Shown piece after piece: positions 6,377 to 37,809 of a stretch of DNA of 40,174 bases. This DNA is from a virus. The stretch spans positions 1 to 40,174 of the IMG/VR virus record IMGVR_UViG_3300006805_000060. One strand, given 5' to 3'. A model generated the notes under the pieces. It saw only the letters and a list, made by a program, of their open reading frames with translations, made no database searches and was not told where the DNA came from. The stretch's first letter is position 1. Each line of letters opens with the position of its first letter. The position numbers and the translations under genes were made by a program.

Positions 6377-6565
6377 ATGGCCACAGAACCAAAAAAGAAA
6401 AGAGTTAAAAAAATAGAAGAACCAGAAATGAAGTTCTTTACTTGCGCTGGTTGCAACCAAAAAAAGTTTGATTGGAACGAACAATGCACGGGTGTAATAT
6501 CAACAAAATGCCTATGGTGTACCAAATATCCAAAACCAAAAAAACGGGTAATAAAAGATGAATGA
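6377..6565 (+). CDS. Small zinc-ribbon protein (62 aa)
   Basis: Two Cys pairs, CAGC at about residues 23-26 and CLWC at 45-48, with another Cys at 37, flanked by strongly basic ends (EPKKKRVKKIEE and KPKKRVIKDE). This fits a zinc-ribbon or zinc-knuckle protein that binds nucleic acid or RNA polymerase. Phage zinc ribbons often act in transcription control, but that is inference. It overlaps the next gene by eight bases. Confidence 0.65.
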   Translation: MATEPKKKRVKKIEEPEMKFFTCAGCNQKKFDWNEQCTGVISTKCLWCTKYPKPKKRVIKDE

Positions 6566-17650: not shown

Positions 17651-18103
17651 ATGAGTGTTACAATTAAGAATTTAGAAGCAGCATTTGCTGGTGAGAGTCA
17701 AGCACACACCAAATACCGTTATTTTGCTAAGATGGCAAGAGCACAAGGATTTGAAGATGTTGCAAAACATTTTGAACATACAGCAGAACAAGAGTTACTT
17801 CATGCGTGGGGTCATTTGGAATTGCTGATTGGTAAACCAGATGTTAAACAGTGCCTTGAAATGGCCATTGAAGGTGAGACACACGAGTTCACTACAATGT
17901 ATCCTACAATGCAATCAGAAGCAATTGCAGAAGGTGATGAATTTGCTGCGAAAGAAGCAGCAGATCAAATTGCAGAAAGTAAAGAACACGCAGAACAATT
18001 TGCGGCAATTCTTGTTAAGGCAGAAAAACGTTTTAATGCTTTGAAGAAAGTAGAACAACGTCATGCAGAAGCTTACACAAAAGTATTGGAGAATGTAAAA
18101 TGA
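17651..18103 (+). CDS. Rubrerythrin lacking the rubredoxin domain (150 aa)
   Basis: A four-helix ferritin-like diiron protein. The N-terminal half matches rubrerythrin well: FAGESQAHTKYRYFAKMA, then EHTAEQELLHA with an ExxH pair. The second half has EGETHEFTTMYPTM and EAIAEGDEFAAKEAA. The last ligand pair is odd: the sequence reads AESKEHAEQF where the family has ExxH, so the Glu sits one residue further from the His. Classic rubrerythrins reduce peroxide with electrons from a C-terminal rubredoxin domain. Here that domain is missing but encoded separately by the overlapping next gene. A role in peroxide protection during infection is inference. Confidence 0.9.
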   Translation: MSVTIKNLEAAFAGESQAHTKYRYFAKMARAQGFEDVAKHFEHTAEQELLHAWGHLELLIGKPDVKQCLEMAIEGETHEFTTMYPTMQSEAIAEGDEFAAKEAADQIAESKEHAEQFAAILVKAEKRFNALKKVEQRHAEAYTKVLENVK

Positions 18104-27924: not shown

Positions 27925-28164
27925 ATGAACGATTATGCACTTGTTTATTGGGATAAAAATACAAAAAAACCAATAACACATTATTTAAATGAAAACGTAA
28001 CTAATATTTTAGATTTTGCAAATTATGTGGTGCCACAAGGCACCACATTTAATGTGGTACATACGAATGACCTGGCGCACAAAACGATTCCCAAAAAAAT
28101 TGAATTAGCACTCACCGATGGTGAATCCAAGTCTTTGTTTTTTGAATATTTCAAGGCACTATAA
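27925..28164 (+). CDS. Small unknown protein (79 aa)
   Basis: Starts two bases after the fibre-like gene. Soluble alpha/beta product (MNDYALVYWDKNTKKPITHY) with the end DGESKSLFFEYFKAL. As it follows a putative fibre gene directly, a small fibre-assembly chaperone is possible, though nothing in the sequence proves it. The stop overlaps the next ATG (TAATG). Confidence 0.6.
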   Translation: MNDYALVYWDKNTKKPITHYLNENVTNILDFANYVVPQGTTFNVVHTNDLAHKTIPKKIELALTDGESKSLFFEYFKAL

Positions 28165-28748
28165 TGCTTTATGATGTTACACAATTTAAAGATGAAACAG
28201 GAAAAATGCAACATTCTTTGGTGACAAAAGATGTTGTTTTATGCCTTTGTTATCAACCACCAGGTTTACAATACAATCACCCCAATAGAAATTTAGGAAC
28301 TTTCAGTCAAGCAGTTTACGTAGTTTCTGGAGATTATACTTGTAAACCAGCATATCGAGCATCCGGTTTGAATCGAGATACAGTAGAAACTGATATCATG
28401 CATATCAAATCTGGTGATTTTGTGGATCTCGAACATCTACAAAACATCACATTACATGACAAAGCTGGATCTGATGGTGTGATGATGATACATATTAATC
28501 CTATGTCAGGTGAACCCGAATTCAATTTTGAATTTATTGGACCAAATGAATCTAGAAAAATTATTGCAACCGATAAACGTAAAATTGTCTTTTGTTTCAA
28601 AGAAGAAGTCTATGTGAATGGTGTTGAACTGTCGCTTCTCAATAGAATGCGATTAAAATATGATAGTGAAGTAGTAATTGAAACTGGCGTTAATGGTGCC
28701 TGCTTAGTTATGGAGAAACGAATTGCAACAAAACCAATTACCATATAA
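28164..28748 (+). CDS. Cupin-like protein (194 aa)
   Basis: Two beta-sandwich-like halves: AVYVVSGDYTCKPAYRA with HIKSGDFVDLEHL and IVFCFKEEVYVNGVELSLLN with YDSEVVIET. The pattern 'voltage of strands, then Gly, then His/Glu-rich turn' fits a double cupin. Unlike classical cupins the His pair is not HxH, so metal binding is uncertain. It is coupled to the gene before it and overlaps the adenylating enzyme after it by 26 bases, tying it to that operon. Confidence 0.5.
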   Translation: MLYDVTQFKDETGKMQHSLVTKDVVLCLCYQPPGLQYNHPNRNLGTFSQAVYVVSGDYTCKPAYRASGLNRDTVETDIMHIKSGDFVDLEHLQNITLHDKAGSDGVMMIHINPMSGEPEFNFEFIGPNESRKIIATDKRKIVFCFKEEVYVNGVELSLLNRMRLKYDSEVVIETGVNGACLVMEKRIATKPITI

Positions 28749-30240
28749 TTGCCTAACACACTTAGATCAAATCTCTCAACAGTTAGGCACCCAAAATAAA
28801 ATTGCAGTAATCGATAATACAAATTCAATCACATACAGTGAATTGTACACCAAAGCAAAACGTTTTGGTTGTTCACTGTTGAACTGCAATATCAAACATC
28901 AAGAACATATCATAATATGTCTCGAAGATTCTATAGATTTCATTGTTTGTTTTCTGGGTTCAATCTATGCAGGTATAATACCTGTTGTAATTAATCCCAA
29001 TTTATCAAATTCAGAAATTCATCAAATTGTAGTCAAAAGCCCAGCCAACAATGTCATTTGTTCCAAATCTAGGGCCAATGATTTTTGTCAGAAAGAATGG
29101 AATCTGATATTAATTCCTGATGTTATCACTGGCAATTCAGTTGACAGATTCATTGGTCAACAATATAATACAAAAATTGAACCAACTGACACATATGAAA
29201 ATGATGATGCTTTTATTTACTGTACATCTGGTACCACAGGACACATAAAACTGGTGGTACATTCTCAAAAAAGTATTTGTGGCACCGGACTGCAATATGG
29301 TACATCAGTAATATCATTGAATAAAAATGATGTTGTATTTTCTGCTGCGAAACTATCTCATGCATATGGTTTAGGAAATTCCATTTCAATTCCTTTTGTT
29401 CACGGATGTACCGTCGTATTGGAATCAAGTCTGGCCACGCCAGAAACTATAGTAAAACTTATAGAAACCAATAAGGTTACCACTTTCTGTGGAGTACCGA
29501 GACACTTCACCTCTTTATTAAATACATCCAGGCAGTATAGTTTGGATACATTAAAAGTTTGTTTATCCGCAGGAGAATCTTTACCACAAAAAGTAGGTAA
29601 GGACTTTACAAATCGATACAAGTGTGTTATAATCAATGCAATAGGTTCTACAGAAATATTAGGTTTTGCCTTGTCCACAAGATCAGACGACATTGCTTAT
29701 GGTAGTACCGGCACGGTAGTTGATGGTTGTCAAGTGAAATTAATGGACGACTACGGTAATGAAGTGAAACAGGGACAACTAGGTGAATTATTTGTACATA
29801 GTGAGTATTCATCTAAAAAATATTGGAATGATGAAAGTTCAACACAATATACTTTCATCGATGGTTGGATAAAAACTAACGATATGTATATGGTGAATAC
29901 AAATGGTCATTATGTGCATAAAGGTCGAAAAAATGATTGTATGAAAGTTAATGGTTTATATGTTTCATTGACTGGATTAGAAAAAGATTTATATGAGGTG
30001 GATTCGATTTTAGATGCAGCTGTGGTTTTTGTTGAGAATAAATACGGATTGAATAAGATTGAATTGCATATAGTATTAAAAGATAATTTCAATGAGGATA
30101 TAGAATATGCAAACATACAACAACATTTCAACAAACACGAATTGTTATCAAACCGTCCTTTTACCATAAAAATTATAGACGCATTGCCTCGTACACAATC
30201 TGGTAAAATCAAGAAATATGTTTTATTAAATAGAGATTAA
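28723..30240 (+). CDS. Acyl/aryl-AMP-forming ligase, ANL superfamily (505 aa)
   Basis: A complete class I adenylate-forming enzyme. Core motifs: A3 YCTSGTTGHIK at 166-176, A5 GSTE at 308-311, A7-like TND with Asp387, A8 GRKNDCMKVNG at 401-411, and A10 RTQSGKIKK with Lys495. The segment FSAAKLSHAYGLGNS (206-220) is close to the FSAAKLFFAYGLGN block of benzoate-CoA ligases, hinting at an aryl or short carboxylic acid. Such enzymes make an acyl-AMP and pass it to CoA or a carrier; no carrier domain is fused. Start TTG at 28723 is preceded by ggaga at six bases. I do not know T4-like phages with this gene. Confidence 0.9.
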   Translation: MQQNQLPYNCLTHLDQISQQLGTQNKIAVIDNTNSITYSELYTKAKRFGCSLLNCNIKHQEHIIICLEDSIDFIVCFLGSIYAGIIPVVINPNLSNSEIHQIVVKSPANNVICSKSRANDFCQKEWNLILIPDVITGNSVDRFIGQQYNTKIEPTDTYENDDAFIYCTSGTTGHIKLVVHSQKSICGTGLQYGTSVISLNKNDVVFSAAKLSHAYGLGNSISIPFVHGCTVVLESSLATPETIVKLIETNKVTTFCGVPRHFTSLLNTSRQYSLDTLKVCLSAGESLPQKVGKDFTNRYKCVIINAIGSTEILGFALSTRSDDIAYGSTGTVVDGCQVKLMDDYGNEVKQGQLGELFVHSEYSSKKYWNDESSTQYTFIDGWIKTNDMYMVNTNGHYVHKGRKNDCMKVNGLYVSLTGLEKDLYEVDSILDAAVVFVENKYGLNKIELHIVLKDNFNEDIEYANIQQHFNKHELLSNRPFTIKIIDALPRTQSGKIKKYVLLNRD

Positions 30241-30241
30241 G

Positions 30242-31357
30242 ATGAAAATATTCAATCCCGTAATTATGCAACCTGTTGCACAACCATTAAATGCTGCCTT
30301 GCAACTAGCTGGTTTGGTACCAACGGGTGTAGAAGATGCAGATTTTGTATATTTTGGTAAAAATAATAATTATGAATCATATAAGATGTTGCCAGAAAAG
30401 TTCACAAATACTGTTTGTTTAGATTTAATGATTAAGTCTAAATTACCAGAATTGTTTAAAGCTGCCGGAATTAATTATATACAATCGGATGTAATAACCG
30501 ATATTAATGTAATTTTGGACTATCCTAGTGATAATGTTTTTATTAAACCTATTGAAGGTGCTTTATCGCGAACACCATATACATTTGTTTATAAAATATT
30601 TACATCTAAAACAGAACTTCTGAATACTATTGATTTGGAATGTCCAGATTTCTTCTCAATGAATGAATTTGGTGTTATTGAATCATCAAAACATATCATA
30701 CAAAAAGCAATAATGCCTGATAGTGAAGGTTATAACTATCAATATTTTGCGCCGGCATATGTTAATGGCCAAGGACAAATCAAAACAGAAGGCATCGGTG
30801 CTTCAAAATTAAAGTTCAACTCATTAAATGATGTCGATGACAAGACATATCCATTACGGTATTTAAAAGAGTTTAGTGTTAGAAATACCGAAGACCAAAC
30901 CAATAAATTTGATATTTTTGGCCAATTACAAAAACTAGTTGATTTTTATTCAATAAAAAATACACCGATGAACACTCAATGGTTGGTTGACACTGATGGC
31001 CAAGCATACATGATAGATTTTGGTTATAACTATCAAAGAGCCTTGTATTGTAATACGAACTTAATAACCACAGAAATGTTTGCAGATAAGTTGCGTTATG
31101 TGTATGATTTACAACCTGATATAAAGCAGCCATTAACTGGTTGGACTGGCGTATTTGATTTAATGATAACTAGTGATAAGAAAACGCTAATTGAATATGC
31201 AAACTTTTTGGGTATACATGTCGCGGAAACATGGGGATCGGCCACAACAGAAAAATCACTGACTGTGCCATTTGTAATAAGAGGTTATTCAGAAGAAGAA
31301 TGTGTAAATAGAGTACAAACTTTGCGTGATTACATTGAAAAAAACACAAAAATTTAA
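30242..31357 (+). CDS. ATP-grasp-like ligase (371 aa)
   Basis: Two ATP-grasp features: FIKP at about residues 100-103 (the ATP-binding Lys) and, at 245-266, TQWLVDTDGQAYMIDFGYN, the late block with Asp and acid residues that bind Mg-ATP. The remainder fits an alpha/beta ligase, though the N-terminal domain is unlike the common families. ATP-grasp enzymes join a carboxylate to an amine or thiol. It lies one base after the adenylating enzyme, so both probably act on one product, for example activation followed by amide formation. Confidence in the fold is moderate; the substrate is unknown. Confidence 0.6.
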   Translation: MKIFNPVIMQPVAQPLNAALQLAGLVPTGVEDADFVYFGKNNNYESYKMLPEKFTNTVCLDLMIKSKLPELFKAAGINYIQSDVITDINVILDYPSDNVFIKPIEGALSRTPYTFVYKIFTSKTELLNTIDLECPDFFSMNEFGVIESSKHIIQKAIMPDSEGYNYQYFAPAYVNGQGQIKTEGIGASKLKFNSLNDVDDKTYPLRYLKEFSVRNTEDQTNKFDIFGQLQKLVDFYSIKNTPMNTQWLVDTDGQAYMIDFGYNYQRALYCNTNLITTEMFADKLRYVYDLQPDIKQPLTGWTGVFDLMITSDKKTLIEYANFLGIHVAETWGSATTEKSLTVPFVIRGYSEEECVNRVQTLRDYIEKNTKI

Positions 31358-31371
31358 GAGGGAAATTTGAA

Positions 31372-33417
31372 ATGAAGAAACAATTAACAACTTTGTTATT
31401 ACTTTGTCCGATTATGAGTTTTGCTGAGCAAACTTTGGATCCTGTGGTTGTGACTGCCACGAGGTATGAATTGTCAAATTTGGAAACACCGGCCGCGATA
31501 ACAAAAATTACGTTACCGGAGATTGGACTTAAATTCACACCAACAGAATCTTTAAATCGAGTGGTGGGTCTCTCAATTACCGATACTAATGCAACTGATA
31601 TTCGATTAACTACTCGGGGTTTTGGTTCAAGGACACCTTTCGCAACTCGTGGTGTACAAATTTATCGCGATGGCCTTCCTATTACATTTGCTGATGCAAC
31701 TGGCCTAACATCGATTGTTGACATGAACGTGATTAGTAACATCGAAGTATTAAAAGGTCCTTTTAGTAGTATGTACGGCAGTAGTTCTAGTGGTGTCGTG
31801 CAATTCTTCACCGAAGTTCCTTCCAAAGAATCTGAGATTTCCGGTGGAACATTGTTTGGTAGTTTCAACACTCAACAGAACAATATCAAATATTCTGGAA
31901 TATCAGGAAATGTCAAATACTTATTGAATCAATCCAATTACACATCTGATGGGTACAGAGATTTTTCAAAAATTAAACGAGATCAAAGTACGGGCAAATT
32001 ATGGTTCGATATAAATGATTATACACAAATTGAGATTGGTGTGAATTCTTATCGTCAAAATAACCAAGATTATGGTAACGGTAACGGTGGAATTACACTA
32101 TCTCAATTTAGAACTAATCCATATAGCGTGGATGCATCCGTATACAATATTAATAGTTGGAAGTCTATCGATCAACAAGATGCAAATTTAAAAGTCACAC
32201 ACTTAATCAACAAGGATAATTCTTTAGTGTTCGCTGTCTATGGTGGAAATAGAAATCAAGAACAACTCAGTCCAACTACAGAAAGTAATACTCTTTTGAG
32301 AACTTCTAGTGGTCTACTCAAAACATCTAGAGAATTTTGGGGCACAGAAATTAGATTAGATCATTCTGGTATTGTGGTGAACAAAAAATATAATGTATCA
32401 TTTGGTTTAACTGCACAGTCACAAACAGATTCGGTTACAAATGGTAAATGGATGGTTAGTGGTGTACAATTGAACGGTAATACATTAACACGAAGTGTAA
32501 ATCAAAATGCATTAACTATGGGTCAATTTGTGCAAGGTCGTTTATCTGTAAGTGATACCGTCGATTTACATGCCGGTGTTAGAAGAACTACCATGGGTAT
32601 GGATTTTATCGACCACTTGACTGATATTGCTAATGGCGGTAATAACAGTGGAAGTGTAAATTATAATAGTTCAAGTCCATCAATTGGCATTGTTTGGAAA
32701 GCAACACCGAATACCAGTGTTTATTCAAGTTATGCAAAAGGACTTGAGTTACCAACGTTCAATGAAACGCAATTTGCTAGTGCTATATCGACCACAACAC
32801 CAAATACAACATTGCGACCAAGTAAATCCGACAACTTTGAAATTGGTGCAAAATCGTATGTAACAACAAACACATATGTTACGACATCTATTTTTCAATC
32901 AAAAACTAATAATGAGATTGTAATTACACAAAACGCACCAGGTTTCAAAATCTATGGTAATCTAGGTTCAACAACAAGACAAGGTATTGAATTTAGTATC
33001 GACTCCAAATTGCCTCTGGGATTTGGTTTCTATAATGCATTCTCATATACTGAAGCAACATTTGATGATACAGGTAAAACTTTGCCAGCAGTACCAAAAA
33101 CTCTAGCATTTACTGAATTGAGTTGGACCTATGCACCAAAGAACTTCCGTGCATCCATTGAAGCAGTACATGCAGGTAAAGTTTACGGTGAAGTAGACAA
33201 TTCAATTTCTGATGATGGTTATACCATATTCAATCTGAAAACTACACTGAAACAAAAATACAACAAATTGACAGTAACTGAATATTTTGCAGTCAATAAT
33301 ATCAATGACACTGTTTATGTTGCCAACTTGCGTACTGCTGCACAATATGGTCGATATTATGAATCTGGTGTTAAACGCAATGTAATGTTAGGTGTGATGG
33401 CATCTTATGCTTTCTGA
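31372..33417 (+). CDS. TonB-dependent outer-membrane receptor (681 aa)
   Basis: Signal peptide (residues 1-18, cleaved after SFA), TonB box DPVVVTATR (23-31), then the plug domain with TRGFGSRTPFATRGV and KGPFSSMYGSSSSGVVQF, and a barrel of about 500 residues with repeated aromatic/Gly strand ends. It finishes in GVMASYAF, with the terminal Phe needed for barrel insertion. It appears intact and full length. These receptors import siderophores, cobalamin, haem and other scarce ligands with energy from host TonB/ExbBD. A phage copy is rare in my knowledge. Fourteen bases after the ATP-grasp gene. Confidence 0.93.
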   Translation: MKKQLTTLLLLCPIMSFAEQTLDPVVVTATRYELSNLETPAAITKITLPEIGLKFTPTESLNRVVGLSITDTNATDIRLTTRGFGSRTPFATRGVQIYRDGLPITFADATGLTSIVDMNVISNIEVLKGPFSSMYGSSSSGVVQFFTEVPSKESEISGGTLFGSFNTQQNNIKYSGISGNVKYLLNQSNYTSDGYRDFSKIKRDQSTGKLWFDINDYTQIEIGVNSYRQNNQDYGNGNGGITLSQFRTNPYSVDASVYNINSWKSIDQQDANLKVTHLINKDNSLVFAVYGGNRNQEQLSPTTESNTLLRTSSGLLKTSREFWGTEIRLDHSGIVVNKKYNVSFGLTAQSQTDSVTNGKWMVSGVQLNGNTLTRSVNQNALTMGQFVQGRLSVSDTVDLHAGVRRTTMGMDFIDHLTDIANGGNNSGSVNYNSSSPSIGIVWKATPNTSVYSSYAKGLELPTFNETQFASAISTTTPNTTLRPSKSDNFEIGAKSYVTTNTYVTTSIFQSKTNNEIVITQNAPGFKIYGNLGSTTRQGIEFSIDSKLPLGFGFYNAFSYTEATFDDTGKTLPAVPKTLAFTELSWTYAPKNFRASIEAVHAGKVYGEVDNSISDDGYTIFNLKTTLKQKYNKLTVTEYFAVNNINDTVYVANLRTAAQYGRYYESGVKRNVMLGVMASYAF

Positions 33418-33727
33418 TATAAATTTAAATGCCATAGAATTCTGTGTGGGTGTGGTATCAAATAACCACACAGAATTCAGAGTTAAGATTGGCCGAACGC
33501 GCGAGTTGTGTGACTCATCCAAAACATTAATTTTTTATAAAAAATCTCCATATATGTTTGATTGTGCATACAAATCATTAGCATATTTTAAGATAATAAT
33601 ATTAGACACCCTATATAAAAATGAATTAAAAAATTTTGGTGATGATGAATTGCCAGAAAAGGCCGGTCGGTATTTTAATCACCGATTTAATTTAAATTGT
33701 CCAACTATACCTTATACCAAACTATAA
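33407..33727 (+). CDS. Unknown protein (106 aa)
   Basis: Starts inside the last codons of the receptor gene (11-base overlap). Soluble product (LNAIEFCVGVVSNNHTEFRV) with several Cys, Phe and Tyr residues and a basic end. The start overlap and TAATG junction to the next gene tie it to the accessory operon. No family is recognised. Confidence 0.65.
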   Translation: MLSDINLNAIEFCVGVVSNNHTEFRVKIGRTRELCDSSKTLIFYKKSPYMFDCAYKSLAYFKIIILDTLYKNELKNFGDDELPEKAGRYFNHRFNLNCPTIPYTKL

Positions 33728-34068
33728 TGAATTATCCAGAAATATCTTTAGGCATTGTACACAATGTGTGGACTCGACAGATGCATTTCCTAAAAAAAGG
33801 AGATCACGAAACGCAGCATACACACCAATTTGACCATACTACATTGTTAGCTAAAGGTTCTTTAGAGGTTGTGGTTAATGGTAAATCTACCATTTTTAAA
33901 TCTCCACATATGATTTTTATTTCAAAAGACCACGATCATAGTATGACTGCATTAGAAGATGATACAGTGGCATATTGTATTCATGCTATGACTGCTCACG
34001 ATGGCATTAATGAATATACCAAACACGTAGACGACCTTGTTTCTCCTGATATGATACCCAACAAATAA
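33727..34068 (+). CDS. Cupin protein (113 aa)
   Basis: ATG at 33727 overlaps the previous stop; a TTG 30 bases earlier is less likely. Cupin motif 1 is recognisable: GDHETQHTHQFDHTTLLAKG (25-44) with His31, His33 and a third His37 where the family often has Glu. Motif 2 is FISKDHDHSM. A metal-binding single-domain cupin, of the kind found in phages and bacteria as dioxygenase- or isomerase-like enzymes. Substrate unknown. It is the last gene of the block with the receptor. Confidence 0.75.
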   Translation: MNYPEISLGIVHNVWTRQMHFLKKGDHETQHTHQFDHTTLLAKGSLEVVVNGKSTIFKSPHMIFISKDHDHSMTALEDDTVAYCIHAMTAHDGINEYTKHVDDLVSPDMIPNK

Positions 34069-34071
34069 ATT

Positions 34072-34731
34072 ATGTTTAATTATTGTCCACCTAAAGACTT
34101 GCAAGACCTGAAATCGCAAACCTTCCCTGATGGTAAAAGATATTATACACTGGAAGATGGTACTAAGTTGCCCTCTGTTACCACTGTGCTTGGTGCAAAA
34201 AAGAAAGAAGGTATTCTTGCATGGCGTAAACGTGTGGGTGAAGAAGAAGCCAATCGTATCTCCAGACAAGCCACATCACGCGGTACGAACGTTCATACAA
34301 TTTGTGAACACTATCTCAATAACAAACCAGGTTTCTCTAAGGGCATCATGCCTGACGCTGTGGAGATGTTTAAGAGTATTAGACCAACACTAGATAAGAT
34401 TAAAAATATTCATTATCAAGAAGTTGCATTGTGGTCTAAACAATTGGGTCTTGCAGGTCGTGTAGATTGTATTGGTGAATATGATGGTGTGTTATCATCT
34501 ATTGACTTCAAGACATCCAAGAAGATTAAGAAACGTGAAGATATTCTGGATTACTTTTGGCAGACAACCGCGTATGCATTGATGTATGAGGAACTAGTTG
34601 GTGTTCCTATTCATCAATTGGTTGTTATCATGGCAGTAGAGAATGAACAACCATTGGTGTTCATCGAGAAAACTTCAGATCACATTCAAGGTTTGGTTGA
34701 TGCAATTGCATATTACCGAAAGACTGCTTGA
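34072..34731 (+). CDS. PD-(D/E)XK exonuclease, Cas4/RecB/MGME1-like (219 aa)
   Basis: Nuclease core: RVDCIGEYDG (Asp of motif II) followed by SSIDFKTSKK (Asp-x-Lys motif III) at about residues 130-150. A conserved Thr/Ser-rich start (YYTLEDGTKLPSVTTVLGAK) and RGTNVHTICEHYL (motif I His/Glu helix) are typical of single-strand exonucleases in T4-like phages and cyanophages. Probably acts in DNA recombination or maturation. The -35 hexamer of the tmRNA promoter overlaps its stop codon. Confidence 0.82.
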   Translation: MFNYCPPKDLQDLKSQTFPDGKRYYTLEDGTKLPSVTTVLGAKKKEGILAWRKRVGEEEANRISRQATSRGTNVHTICEHYLNNKPGFSKGIMPDAVEMFKSIRPTLDKIKNIHYQEVALWSKQLGLAGRVDCIGEYDGVLSSIDFKTSKKIKKREDILDYFWQTTAYALMYEELVGVPIHQLVVIMAVENEQPLVFIEKTSDHIQGLVDAIAYYRKTA

Positions 34732-34756
34732 CAAAGTAAAATAAATAGAGTATAAT
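34728..34756 (+). promoter_or_regulatory. Consensus sigma70 promoter of the tmRNA gene
   Basis: TTGACA at 34728-34733, a 17-base spacer and TATAAT at 34751-34756: both hexamers and the spacing are consensus. Transcription would start near 34763, about 20-25 bases before the first recognisable tmRNA element. The -35 overlaps the stop codon of the nuclease gene. Confidence 0.9.
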
Positions 34757-34762
34757 GTAAGT

Positions 34763-35090
34763 TATTGTTGTATGAAGTAGAATGAAAGGTGTTCAAGACG
34801 CGGGTTCGATTCCCGCCGGGTCCACCAAAAGCATATTGGGATCAGGTCACGCTAGAGATAATGCTAAGAGACTACTAGCGGTAAATGTTCCTGTTAAAAA
34901 AACAACTAATATGCTTTTGATGGGCTCGACCAGGTTTCGATTGGGCAATAAGTAAAGATATGGACAACACGACACAGAGAGTCGTAAAAAGTAAAAACTA
35001 GTAAATGCAAACGATAACTCGTTCCGCCAAGTAGCCTAAAAACTACTAGCTGAGGTTTCGCAAGGTGTCCTTATCATCCAATCACCTTGC
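34763..35090 (+). ncRNA. ssrA: Circularly permuted (two-piece type) tmRNA precursor
   Basis: Order is acceptor piece, intervening segment, coding piece. Acceptor piece: T arm GCGGG-TTCGATT-CCCGC (34800-34816), acceptor strand CGGGTCC (34817-34823), A73 and encoded CCA (34825-34827). Coding piece: GGGCTCG (34922-34928), which pairs fully with the acceptor strand and gives the G3-U70 wobble that AlaRS reads. GGTTTCGA follows, as in bacterial tmRNA. P2 forms between 34790-34796 and 34941-34947 (7 bp). A small hairpin at 34969-34985 is probably part of PK1. The resume codon GCA is at 35007 and the tag is ANDNSFRQVA with TAA at 35037-35039. An 8-bp hairpin (35060-35067 with 35083-35090) likely marks the 3' end. 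The exact 5' end is unknown; SmpB is not encoded here. Confidence 0.93.
34827..34918 (+). other. Intervening segment of the tmRNA precursor with closing helix
   Basis: The two tmRNA pieces are joined by a segment whose ends, 34827-34837 and 34908-34918, are perfect 11-bp reverse complements. With G34919-C34826 and A34824-U34921 added, the helix stacks on the 7-bp acceptor stem with one C-A mismatch. Inside lies a second hairpin, CGCTAG with CTAGCG (34850-34855 with 34875-34880). Processing would remove about 94 bases to free the CCA end and the 5' end of the coding piece. Confidence 0.85.
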
Positions 35091-35097
35091 ATAAATA
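35090..35097 (+). promoter_or_regulatory. Possible T4-type late promoter element CATAAATA
   Basis: CATAAATA directly after the 3' hairpin of the tmRNA and about 33 bases before the ATG at 35130 resembles the NATAAATA late element of T4-like phages. The position would suit late transcription of the lysis/replication group downstream. A short motif in AT-rich DNA is weak evidence. Confidence 0.35.
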
Positions 35098-35129
35098 CAT
35101 ACACACAACACACACAATTAGGACTTAAA

Positions 35130-35414
35130 ATGTCACAACCCATGTCTCCATTCCAAATAAGATTGGAATTGTTGAAGATGGCCAAAGAATTATTGGTCGA
35201 TGACTTCAACACAAAAAAAGATGTAATTCAAGAAGTCTGGCAAACTCAAGTGGAATCTGCAAAAATTGCAGGTGCAACATCACCTCCACACCCTACATTG
35301 CCACCATATCCCACAGAAGAAGAAATTGTAAAGAAAGCAGAAGCTCTCAATCAATTTGTTTCTCAAACCACTCCACAACCAGAAATAAAGATCACGAAGA
35401 AATCTAATTCGTAA
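35130..35414 (+). CDS. Conserved small T4-like protein (94 aa)
   Basis: MSQPMSPFQIRLELLKMAKELLVDDF is a beginning I recognise from small proteins of T4-like cyanophages (MSxPMTPFQIRLELLKLAKdi...). An N-terminal amphipathic helix is followed by a Pro-rich linker and an acidic/basic end. Function unknown. ATG follows taggac. Confidence 0.7.
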   Translation: MSQPMSPFQIRLELLKMAKELLVDDFNTKKDVIQEVWQTQVESAKIAGATSPPHPTLPPYPTEEEIVKKAEALNQFVSQTTPQPEIKITKKSNS

Positions 35415-36193: not shown

Positions 36194-36799
36194 ATGGAAG
36201 AAACAACAGGCTTCGCAGCATTTGCCATGTTTCACGCAATGAAATTGCACTTCACTGGTGATTATGATTATGTGAAGTACCATGGCAAGACTAATGTTTC
36301 TAAAGACACCTTTGCAAACAGGAAAGACAAATACACTTTCTACAAATTGTCACGCAAATATAAACTAGATGACCTAAAAGACTTTTATATTGCAAACTTT
36401 TTGGAGAAGGATGTAAGTTGGATCGGTGATATCTCCAGTGTTGAAGGTGAAGAAAACCTCAAGAAGTGGCAGAAGCGTAGTCAGAGTCTATCATATAGAT
36501 TCGAACAGGACGTTATTGGTCTATTAAACAACATCAATTCACCTAATGAGTTGTTGGTTGTAAATGATGGTCAACATCCACTTCTATTGAATGAGGTAAT
36601 GCAAGGTACTATTGCCATTGAAACACTGGTAATAATGAATGATATTATGAACTTCTTTCCTATGTGGAATAAGAAAATCAATGATACGATTATCTGGCCT
36701 GCATTTAAGAAGAAGTGTGAAAAGTACCTGCCGTTCTTACACTATGATAAGAACAAATTTAAAGTTATATTAAAAGAATGTCTGGCAGAGTACGCCTAA
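36194..36799 (+). CDS. 59: Helicase loader gp59 (201 aa)
   Basis: Matches T4 gp59 along its length: YDYVKYHGKTNVSKDTFANR then KDKYTFYKLSRKYKLDDL, and WIGDISS, against YDVIKYNW...QKRRDKYFFQKLSEKYKLKEL and WIGDIS in T4. gp59 loads the gp41 helicase onto gp32-covered forks. Length (T4 217) and place between gp33 and gp32 agree. Starts two bases after gp33. Confidence 0.9.
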   Translation: MEETTGFAAFAMFHAMKLHFTGDYDYVKYHGKTNVSKDTFANRKDKYTFYKLSRKYKLDDLKDFYIANFLEKDVSWIGDISSVEGEENLKKWQKRSQSLSYRFEQDVIGLLNNINSPNELLVVNDGQHPLLLNEVMQGTIAIETLVIMNDIMNFFPMWNKKINDTIIWPAFKKKCEKYLPFLHYDKNKFKVILKECLAEYA

Positions 36800-36900: not shown

Positions 36901-37809
36901 ATGGCAATTGATTTTTCAAAACTCAAAACATCTTCAGGTAATCTGGACAAACTCACCAAAGCAATCGAAGCACTAAACAGTTCTTCAGATAGCAACGACA
37001 GCAAAGAAAAATTCTGGCGTCCCGAAGTAGATAAGTCTGGCAATGGTATGGCAACAATTCGATTCCTCCCTGCACCTGGTGCTGATGGTGACGATGGTCT
37101 GCCTTGGGTTAAAATCTTCTCACATGGTTTCCAAGGTCCAGGTGGATGGTTGATTGATAACTGTCTGACTACCAAGAACCAACAATGTCCAGTATGTGAA
37201 CACAATTCAACATTGTGGAATTCTGGCATCGAAGCAAACAAAGAAATCGTCCGTAAGCAAAAACGTAAACTCAATTACATTGCTAACGTGTACATCGTTT
37301 CTGATCCTAAGCATCCAGAGAATGAAGGCAAAGTATTCTTGTTCAAATTCGGTAAAAAGATTTTCGACAAGATTAACGAAGCAATGAACCCACAGTTCGC
37401 TGATGAAGAAGCAATCAATCCATTTGATATGTGGAAAGGTGCTAACTTCAAACTGAAGATTCGTAAAGTTGAGGGTTATCAGAACTATGATAAGTCTGAA
37501 TTTGAATCTGCATCACCGTTGAATAGTGATGATGACGAACTGGAAGCAATCTGGAAGATGGAACACTCTCTGTCAGACTTGGTTGGCGACAAAGAATTTA
37601 AATCATATGATGACCTGAAAGGTCGTTTGGATAAAGTTCTTGGTTTGAATGGTGCAGTTATTGCACCAAAGACCACTGTCGAACAGATCAAGGAAGATAA
37701 CCGTGTAATCAGAGACAACCCAGCAGCGAAGCCTGTTGTGTCTCGAACACCAGAAGTCACTGAAGAAGATGATGATATGGCATATTTTTCAAAACTTGCT
37801 GAAGAATAA
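36901..37809 (+). CDS. 32: Single-stranded DNA-binding protein gp32 (302 aa)
   Basis: T4 gp32 family. N-terminal basic/acidic domain, then the OB-fold core with FWRPEVDKSGNGMATIRFLP, the zinc-type Cys pair CPVCEHNSTLWNSG, and KKIFDKINEAMNPQF. The C-terminus is acidic (EEDDDMAYFSKLAEE), as needed for partner binding. Length (T4 301) is normal. It has its own promoter and terminator. Coats single-stranded DNA in replication, recombination and repair, and binds gp59 encoded upstream. Confidence 0.95.
   Translation: MAIDFSKLKTSSGNLDKLTKAIEALNSSSDSNDSKEKFWRPEVDKSGNGMATIRFLPAPGADGDDGLPWVKIFSHGFQGPGGWLIDNCLTTKNQQCPVCEHNSTLWNSGIEANKEIVRKQKRKLNYIANVYIVSDPKHPENEGKVFLFKFGKKIFDKINEAMNPQFADEEAINPFDMWKGANFKLKIRKVEGYQNYDKSEFESASPLNSDDDELEAIWKMEHSLSDLVGDKEFKSYDDLKGRLDKVLGLNGAVIAPKTTVEQIKEDNRVIRDNPAAKPVVSRTPEVTEEDDDMAYFSKLAEE

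Follow-up and report, generated by a model that had tools for sequence, protein, structure and literature searches.

The tmRNA gene and its neighbours

The window, the whole stretch of DNA analysed here, is a 40-kb record (40,174 nucleotides) of a virus collection. The genes found around the tmRNA, namely gp32, a helicase loader, RIIA and a T4-like exonuclease, identify the contig as a T4-like virus. The gene order is nuclease (a PD-(D/E)XK exonuclease, phrog_298; 34072..34731, + strand), tmRNA, a 94-aa protein that is conserved in this phage group (35130..35414, +), a cell wall hydrolase, the DNA helicase loader (phrog_269; 36194..36799, +), and the T4-like gp32 ssDNA-binding protein (36901..37809, +). 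The best cultured relatives of this gp32 are cyanophages, at ~55% identity. On the other side of the nuclease, a cargo block at 28164-34068 codes for an AMP-binding ligase, a 371-aa protein without a family match, a TonB-dependent receptor, and a cupin protein; the homology of a close relative, contig L006, to the window stops at ~34060. TonB receptors were found in few phage records, with an identity of just 26-27%. A rubrerythrin-like protein, judged by sequence only, is encoded at 17651-18103.

The only gene that ARAGORN called in the 40 kb of the window is a permuted tmRNA (tmRNA*), placed at 34735-35130 with the tag ANDNSFRQVA*. Two Rfam covariance models matched the same gene over their whole length and above the gathering threshold: RF04321 (tmRNA_permuted) at 34766-35039, with 114.6 bits and E = 8e-22, and RF01850 (beta_tmRNA) at 34714-35099, with 110.1 bits and E = 8e-33. 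Thus, positions 34728-35090 are a complete, circularly permuted tmRNA gene encoded by the phage. A first-pass annotation had placed such a gene at 34763-35090 and had proposed a search with the permuted Rfam models as a check; the claim is borne out by ARAGORN and by both models, and the coordinates are correct for the RNA, with the promoter lying just upstream.

The elements of the gene, all on the + strand, follow one another in the permuted order that the annotation had described. The promoter, for which it had claimed a consensus sequence, is an exact sigma-70 TTGACA-N17-TATAAT at 34728..34756, which lies inside the flank of the beta_tmRNA model and starts within the 3' end of the nuclease gene. 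Exact TTGACA-N16-18-TATAAT sequences occur 4 times in the window, compared with 0.06 expected. The acceptor piece of the tRNA-like domain, placed by Rfam and by pairing, spans 34766..34827. It contains the 5' strand of P2 (34767-34771), the T arm GCGGG-TTCGATT-CCCGC (34800-34816), and the acceptor 3' strand CGGGTCC, with U70 at 34821, followed by the discriminator A, and is closed by an encoded CCA at 34825-34827. An intervening segment of 94 nt (34828..34921) comes next, whose ends pair (AAAGCATATT / AATATGCTT) and whose last bases, GAT, precede G1 at 34922; this segment is expected to be cut out of the precursor. The region 34922..34968 then holds the 5' acceptor strand GGGCTCG, with G3 at 34924, a D-like region, and the P2 3' strand ACAAC (34964-34968). 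All 7 of the 7 acceptor pairs are formed, including the G3-U70 pair (G 34924, T 34821) for alanylation. A short hairpin, CGAC ACAGAGA GTCG, is located at 34970..34984, followed by the tag reading frame at 35007..35039, with the resume codon GCA, the tag ANDNSFRQVA, and the stop TAA. A terminal 8-bp helix (GCAAGGTG / CACCTTGC) at 35060..35090 lies close to the 3' terminus of the mRNA piece. The tags of relatives end in ALAA, RLAA or RIAA, and the AA ending seen in other relatives is absent from the window and from contigs L006 and L094. The strength of RQVA as a degradation signal is therefore uncertain, since it is not the usual ALAA.

Permuted phage tmRNAs are already known, and the window gene adds another. 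The first-pass annotation overstated the rarity of tmRNA in phages. A survey found tmRNA in 402 phage genomes; of its 133 unique tmRNA structures, 53 were of the two-piece form, nearly all of them aquatic (PMC9004378). The tmRNA database holds 79 unique sequences from bacteriophages, counting every form of tmRNA (PMC11915505). The cultured Methylophilales phage Melnitz (MZ577097; PMC9004378) is likewise T4-like and has a permuted ssrA in the same interval between the nuclease and the helicase loader and ssDNA-binding protein. Its order of nuclease, ssrA, gp33, helicase loader, thyX, and ssDNA-binding protein resembles that of the window. However, the Melnitz tmRNA is of the alpha type (RF01849, 106.7 bits), whereas that of the window is of the beta type, and Melnitz has a glutamine riboswitch directly behind ssrA, whereas no riboswitch was detected in the window at the gathering threshold. 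Downstream of ssrA, Melnitz has gp33, but the window has the 94-aa protein, for which no relation to gp33 could be detected; we had considered this protein as a gp33 candidate and rejected it, as it gave no alignment to Melnitz gp33 and no phage hit. With betaproteobacterial tmRNA (RF01850, and the merged model RF04321), the window gene has in common the whole-model match, the promoter flank, the T arm, the acceptor pairs, and the tag layout, but it is phage-borne and its tag ends in RQVA. The closest bacterial gene that we encountered, L101 from a Burkholderiales pond MAG, is 69% identical to the window over the aligned part. A search for the source of the gene in 399 genomes of this order gave mostly matches to tRNA T arms, so neither the host nor the donor could be named from it.

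Conservation among related phages

Relatives were retrieved from IMG/VR via gp32, giving 80 contigs. The comparable set consists of the 35 contigs, including the window, that match both the nuclease and the helicase loader. A permuted tmRNA is present between these two genes in 27 of the 35; the Rfam search gave none in the other 8, and thus the tmRNA is dispensable in some members. Counts from ARAGORN alone are too low because the program overlooks genes whose T loop is of the alpha kind (L006, L017, and L029). One related contig without a tmRNA, L073, has an abiF RNA (Rfam RF03085) at 6452-6488.

The pairing of the helices was compared in 34 sequences, with registers slid by one or two bases as controls. 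In the acceptor stem, 100% of the pairs are kept and individual positions show as many as 4 types of pair, whereas the slid registers give 52-67%; this helix is somewhat favoured because its 5' strand was placed partly via its pairing. The T stem is 96% paired, versus 57-77% in slid registers. The helix formed by the ends of the intervening segment is also 96% paired in its best register and uses as many as 6 types of pair, whereas its slid registers give 34-60%. Pairing was not the basis on which the T stem or the helix of the intervening segment was placed in individual sequences. Furthermore, G1 is preceded by GAT or AAT in all of the 34 sequences, G3-U70 and ACCA are found in every sequence tabulated, and the tag frame is open in all whole copies examined. 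In L057, the acceptor end CCTACACCA was not matched to the 5' strand of the same contig. The ends of the intervening segment are likewise paired in the Burkholderiales gene L101, so this helix is not phage-specific. In L052 (4188-4587), ARAGORN reported an extended tag, VKSKNQVTANDSAYALAA, probably from a misplaced resume codon.

Some relatives have additional material at the locus. In L035 (2174-2926; L140 is the same contig), there are three CCA/intervening-segment units in tandem, one of which has shrunk to a 23-nt acceptor hairpin with G3-U70, GGGCCTG-CAATG-CAGGTCC-ACCA, at 2402-2424. A search of other contigs for similar acceptor-minihelix units gave chance matches only. Decayed, partial second copies of the tmRNA lie near the intact gene in L058 (2066-2168), L075 (1960-2018), and L071 (~380-430). 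The tandem units and decayed copies fit with frequent recombination at the tmRNA locus. A PqqA-like peptide is encoded just 3' of the tmRNA in L006 (from 3129), L094 (from 2511), and L035 (from 3002). Two phage lineages thus have one, and the window has none. Phage PqqA is known from a Lake Baikal methylophage (PMC7678222), and together these observations make a methylotroph host possible.

Apparent exchange of the tRNA-like domain

The nearest relative of the window is L006, whose gp32 protein is 98.7% identical, and the form of tmRNA in L006 is also found in L094, from a second sample. The window shares with both contigs the promoter and the tag, and the mRNA domains are 97% identical over 118 nt. 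By contrast, from ~34764 to ~34966, a block of ~200 bp that comprises the entire tRNA-like domain together with P2 and the intervening segment, the identity between the window and L006 is ~50-80% per 30-base step. The flanks of this block are 90-100% identical in the window and L006/L094, and identity with both resumes at the short hairpin that begins at 34970. The L006/L094 form fits the alphaproteobacterial model RF01849 over its full length, with 58.8 bits, and has the T loop GGCGGTA, in contrast to the form in the window, which matches the beta model; all seven acceptor pairs are intact in both the window and L006. Judged by these matches, the L006 and L094 genes are hybrids of a window-like mRNA domain and an alpha-type tRNA-like domain. 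It appears that the tRNA half has been exchanged between close relatives as one block for that of another bacterial type, while the remainder was kept.

We considered whether the difference between the window and L006 could instead reflect ordinary fast divergence or an assembly chimera. AU tests with trees of the tRNA-like domain, the mRNA domain, and gp32 rejected congruence, but blocks inside gp32 reject each other's trees too, and at such alignment lengths the AU tests do not discriminate. Similarly, the rank correlation of the identities in the tRNA-like and mRNA domains is 0.34, but it is no lower than between gp32 blocks and is uninformative. Both were dropped as proof of mosaicism, and they leave room for divergence; because the gp32 blocks behave alike, the claim of a mosaic stands on the pairwise block patterns only. 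Those patterns make divergence or a chimera improbable. The block has sharp edges between nearly identical flanks, its alternative form occurs in contigs of two samples, and that form matches the alpha and not the beta model. Furthermore, unrelated pairs show the reverse pattern: the tRNA-like domains of L026 and L066 are 100% identical and their mRNA domains 64%, and L014 and L040 have 98% and 58%, respectively. The two halves of the tmRNA differ in identity by up to 0.40, while gp32 blocks of like size differ by ≤0.24.

Because the permutation places both strands of all tRNA-like helices and of P2 in one block, a single replacement would swap a self-consistent domain. The permutation thus plausibly creates a contiguous tRNA-like cassette and thereby permits its exchange. 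We consider it somewhat probable that, in freshwater T4-like phages, the permuted tmRNA evolves by exchange of whole tRNA-like cassettes, of alpha and beta types, onto retained promoters and tag domains, enabled by the permutation into a block of ~200 bp. Such exchange may tune the fit to host SmpB and AlaRS while the phage keeps its own tag. A literature search of incomplete coverage on mosaicism in phage tmRNA led only to the Melnitz paper and turned up no published account of such a swap of the tRNA-like domain.

Proposed function and significance

In bacteria, a tmRNA precursor is processed, charged with alanine, and delivered to the ribosome with SmpB. We propose that the window carries a working permuted ssrA, very probably one that is processed and charged by the host and frees stalled ribosomes during infection. 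A single precursor would be transcribed, probably early, from the gene's own sigma-70 promoter. The acceptor stem of this precursor would be continuous with the helix that closes the intervening segment, giving one long helix from which host RNase P and 3'-processing enzymes would excise the segment. This would leave a two-piece tmRNA, joined by P2 and the acceptor stem, and its charging with alanine via G3-U70 would fall to host AlaRS. No SmpB gene was found in the 10 phage records searched, most of which may be fragments, so host SmpB would be used for delivery to stalled ribosomes, where the tag A-ANDNSFRQVA would be added and might direct proteolysis. The most likely benefit to the phage would be the release of ribosomes stalled on mRNA that is broken or degraded in infection.

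The RNA could also act as a decoy or competitor, depriving the host tmRNA of SmpB, of AlaRS, or of ribosome sites, or its weak tag could spare proteins from proteolysis. Tags that end in V-A, such as the LVA variant, are degradable, which counts against this reading, although the tag of the window lacks the AA ending of relatives other than L006 and L094. A tmRNA of phage DS6A that has no CDS inhibits the endogenous tmRNA in E. coli (cited in PMC11915505), which is a precedent for a decoy. However, a decoy needs no tag, yet the window retains an intact tag frame with its stop, and most relatives have tags of the ALAA type; we regard this role as quite unlikely. That the gene is a functionless fragment captured from a host is highly improbable and largely refuted by conservation, for although bacterial ssrA is a common integration site and fragments of it occur in prophages (PMC9004378), the gene here has all its parts, including the promoter, the tag, and compensated helices, and many T4-like contigs carry it at the same position.

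The working tmRNA that we propose adds a well-supported phage lineage in which a permuted tmRNA at a fixed locus is the rule, with covariation as evidence. As permuted phage tmRNA itself has already been published, the mosaicism is the less expected result. The hybrid genes are natural domain swaps that can be used to ask which half of the tmRNA sets compatibility with the host, and they suggest an evolutionary consequence of the permutation, namely, that it makes the tRNA-like domain a swappable module.
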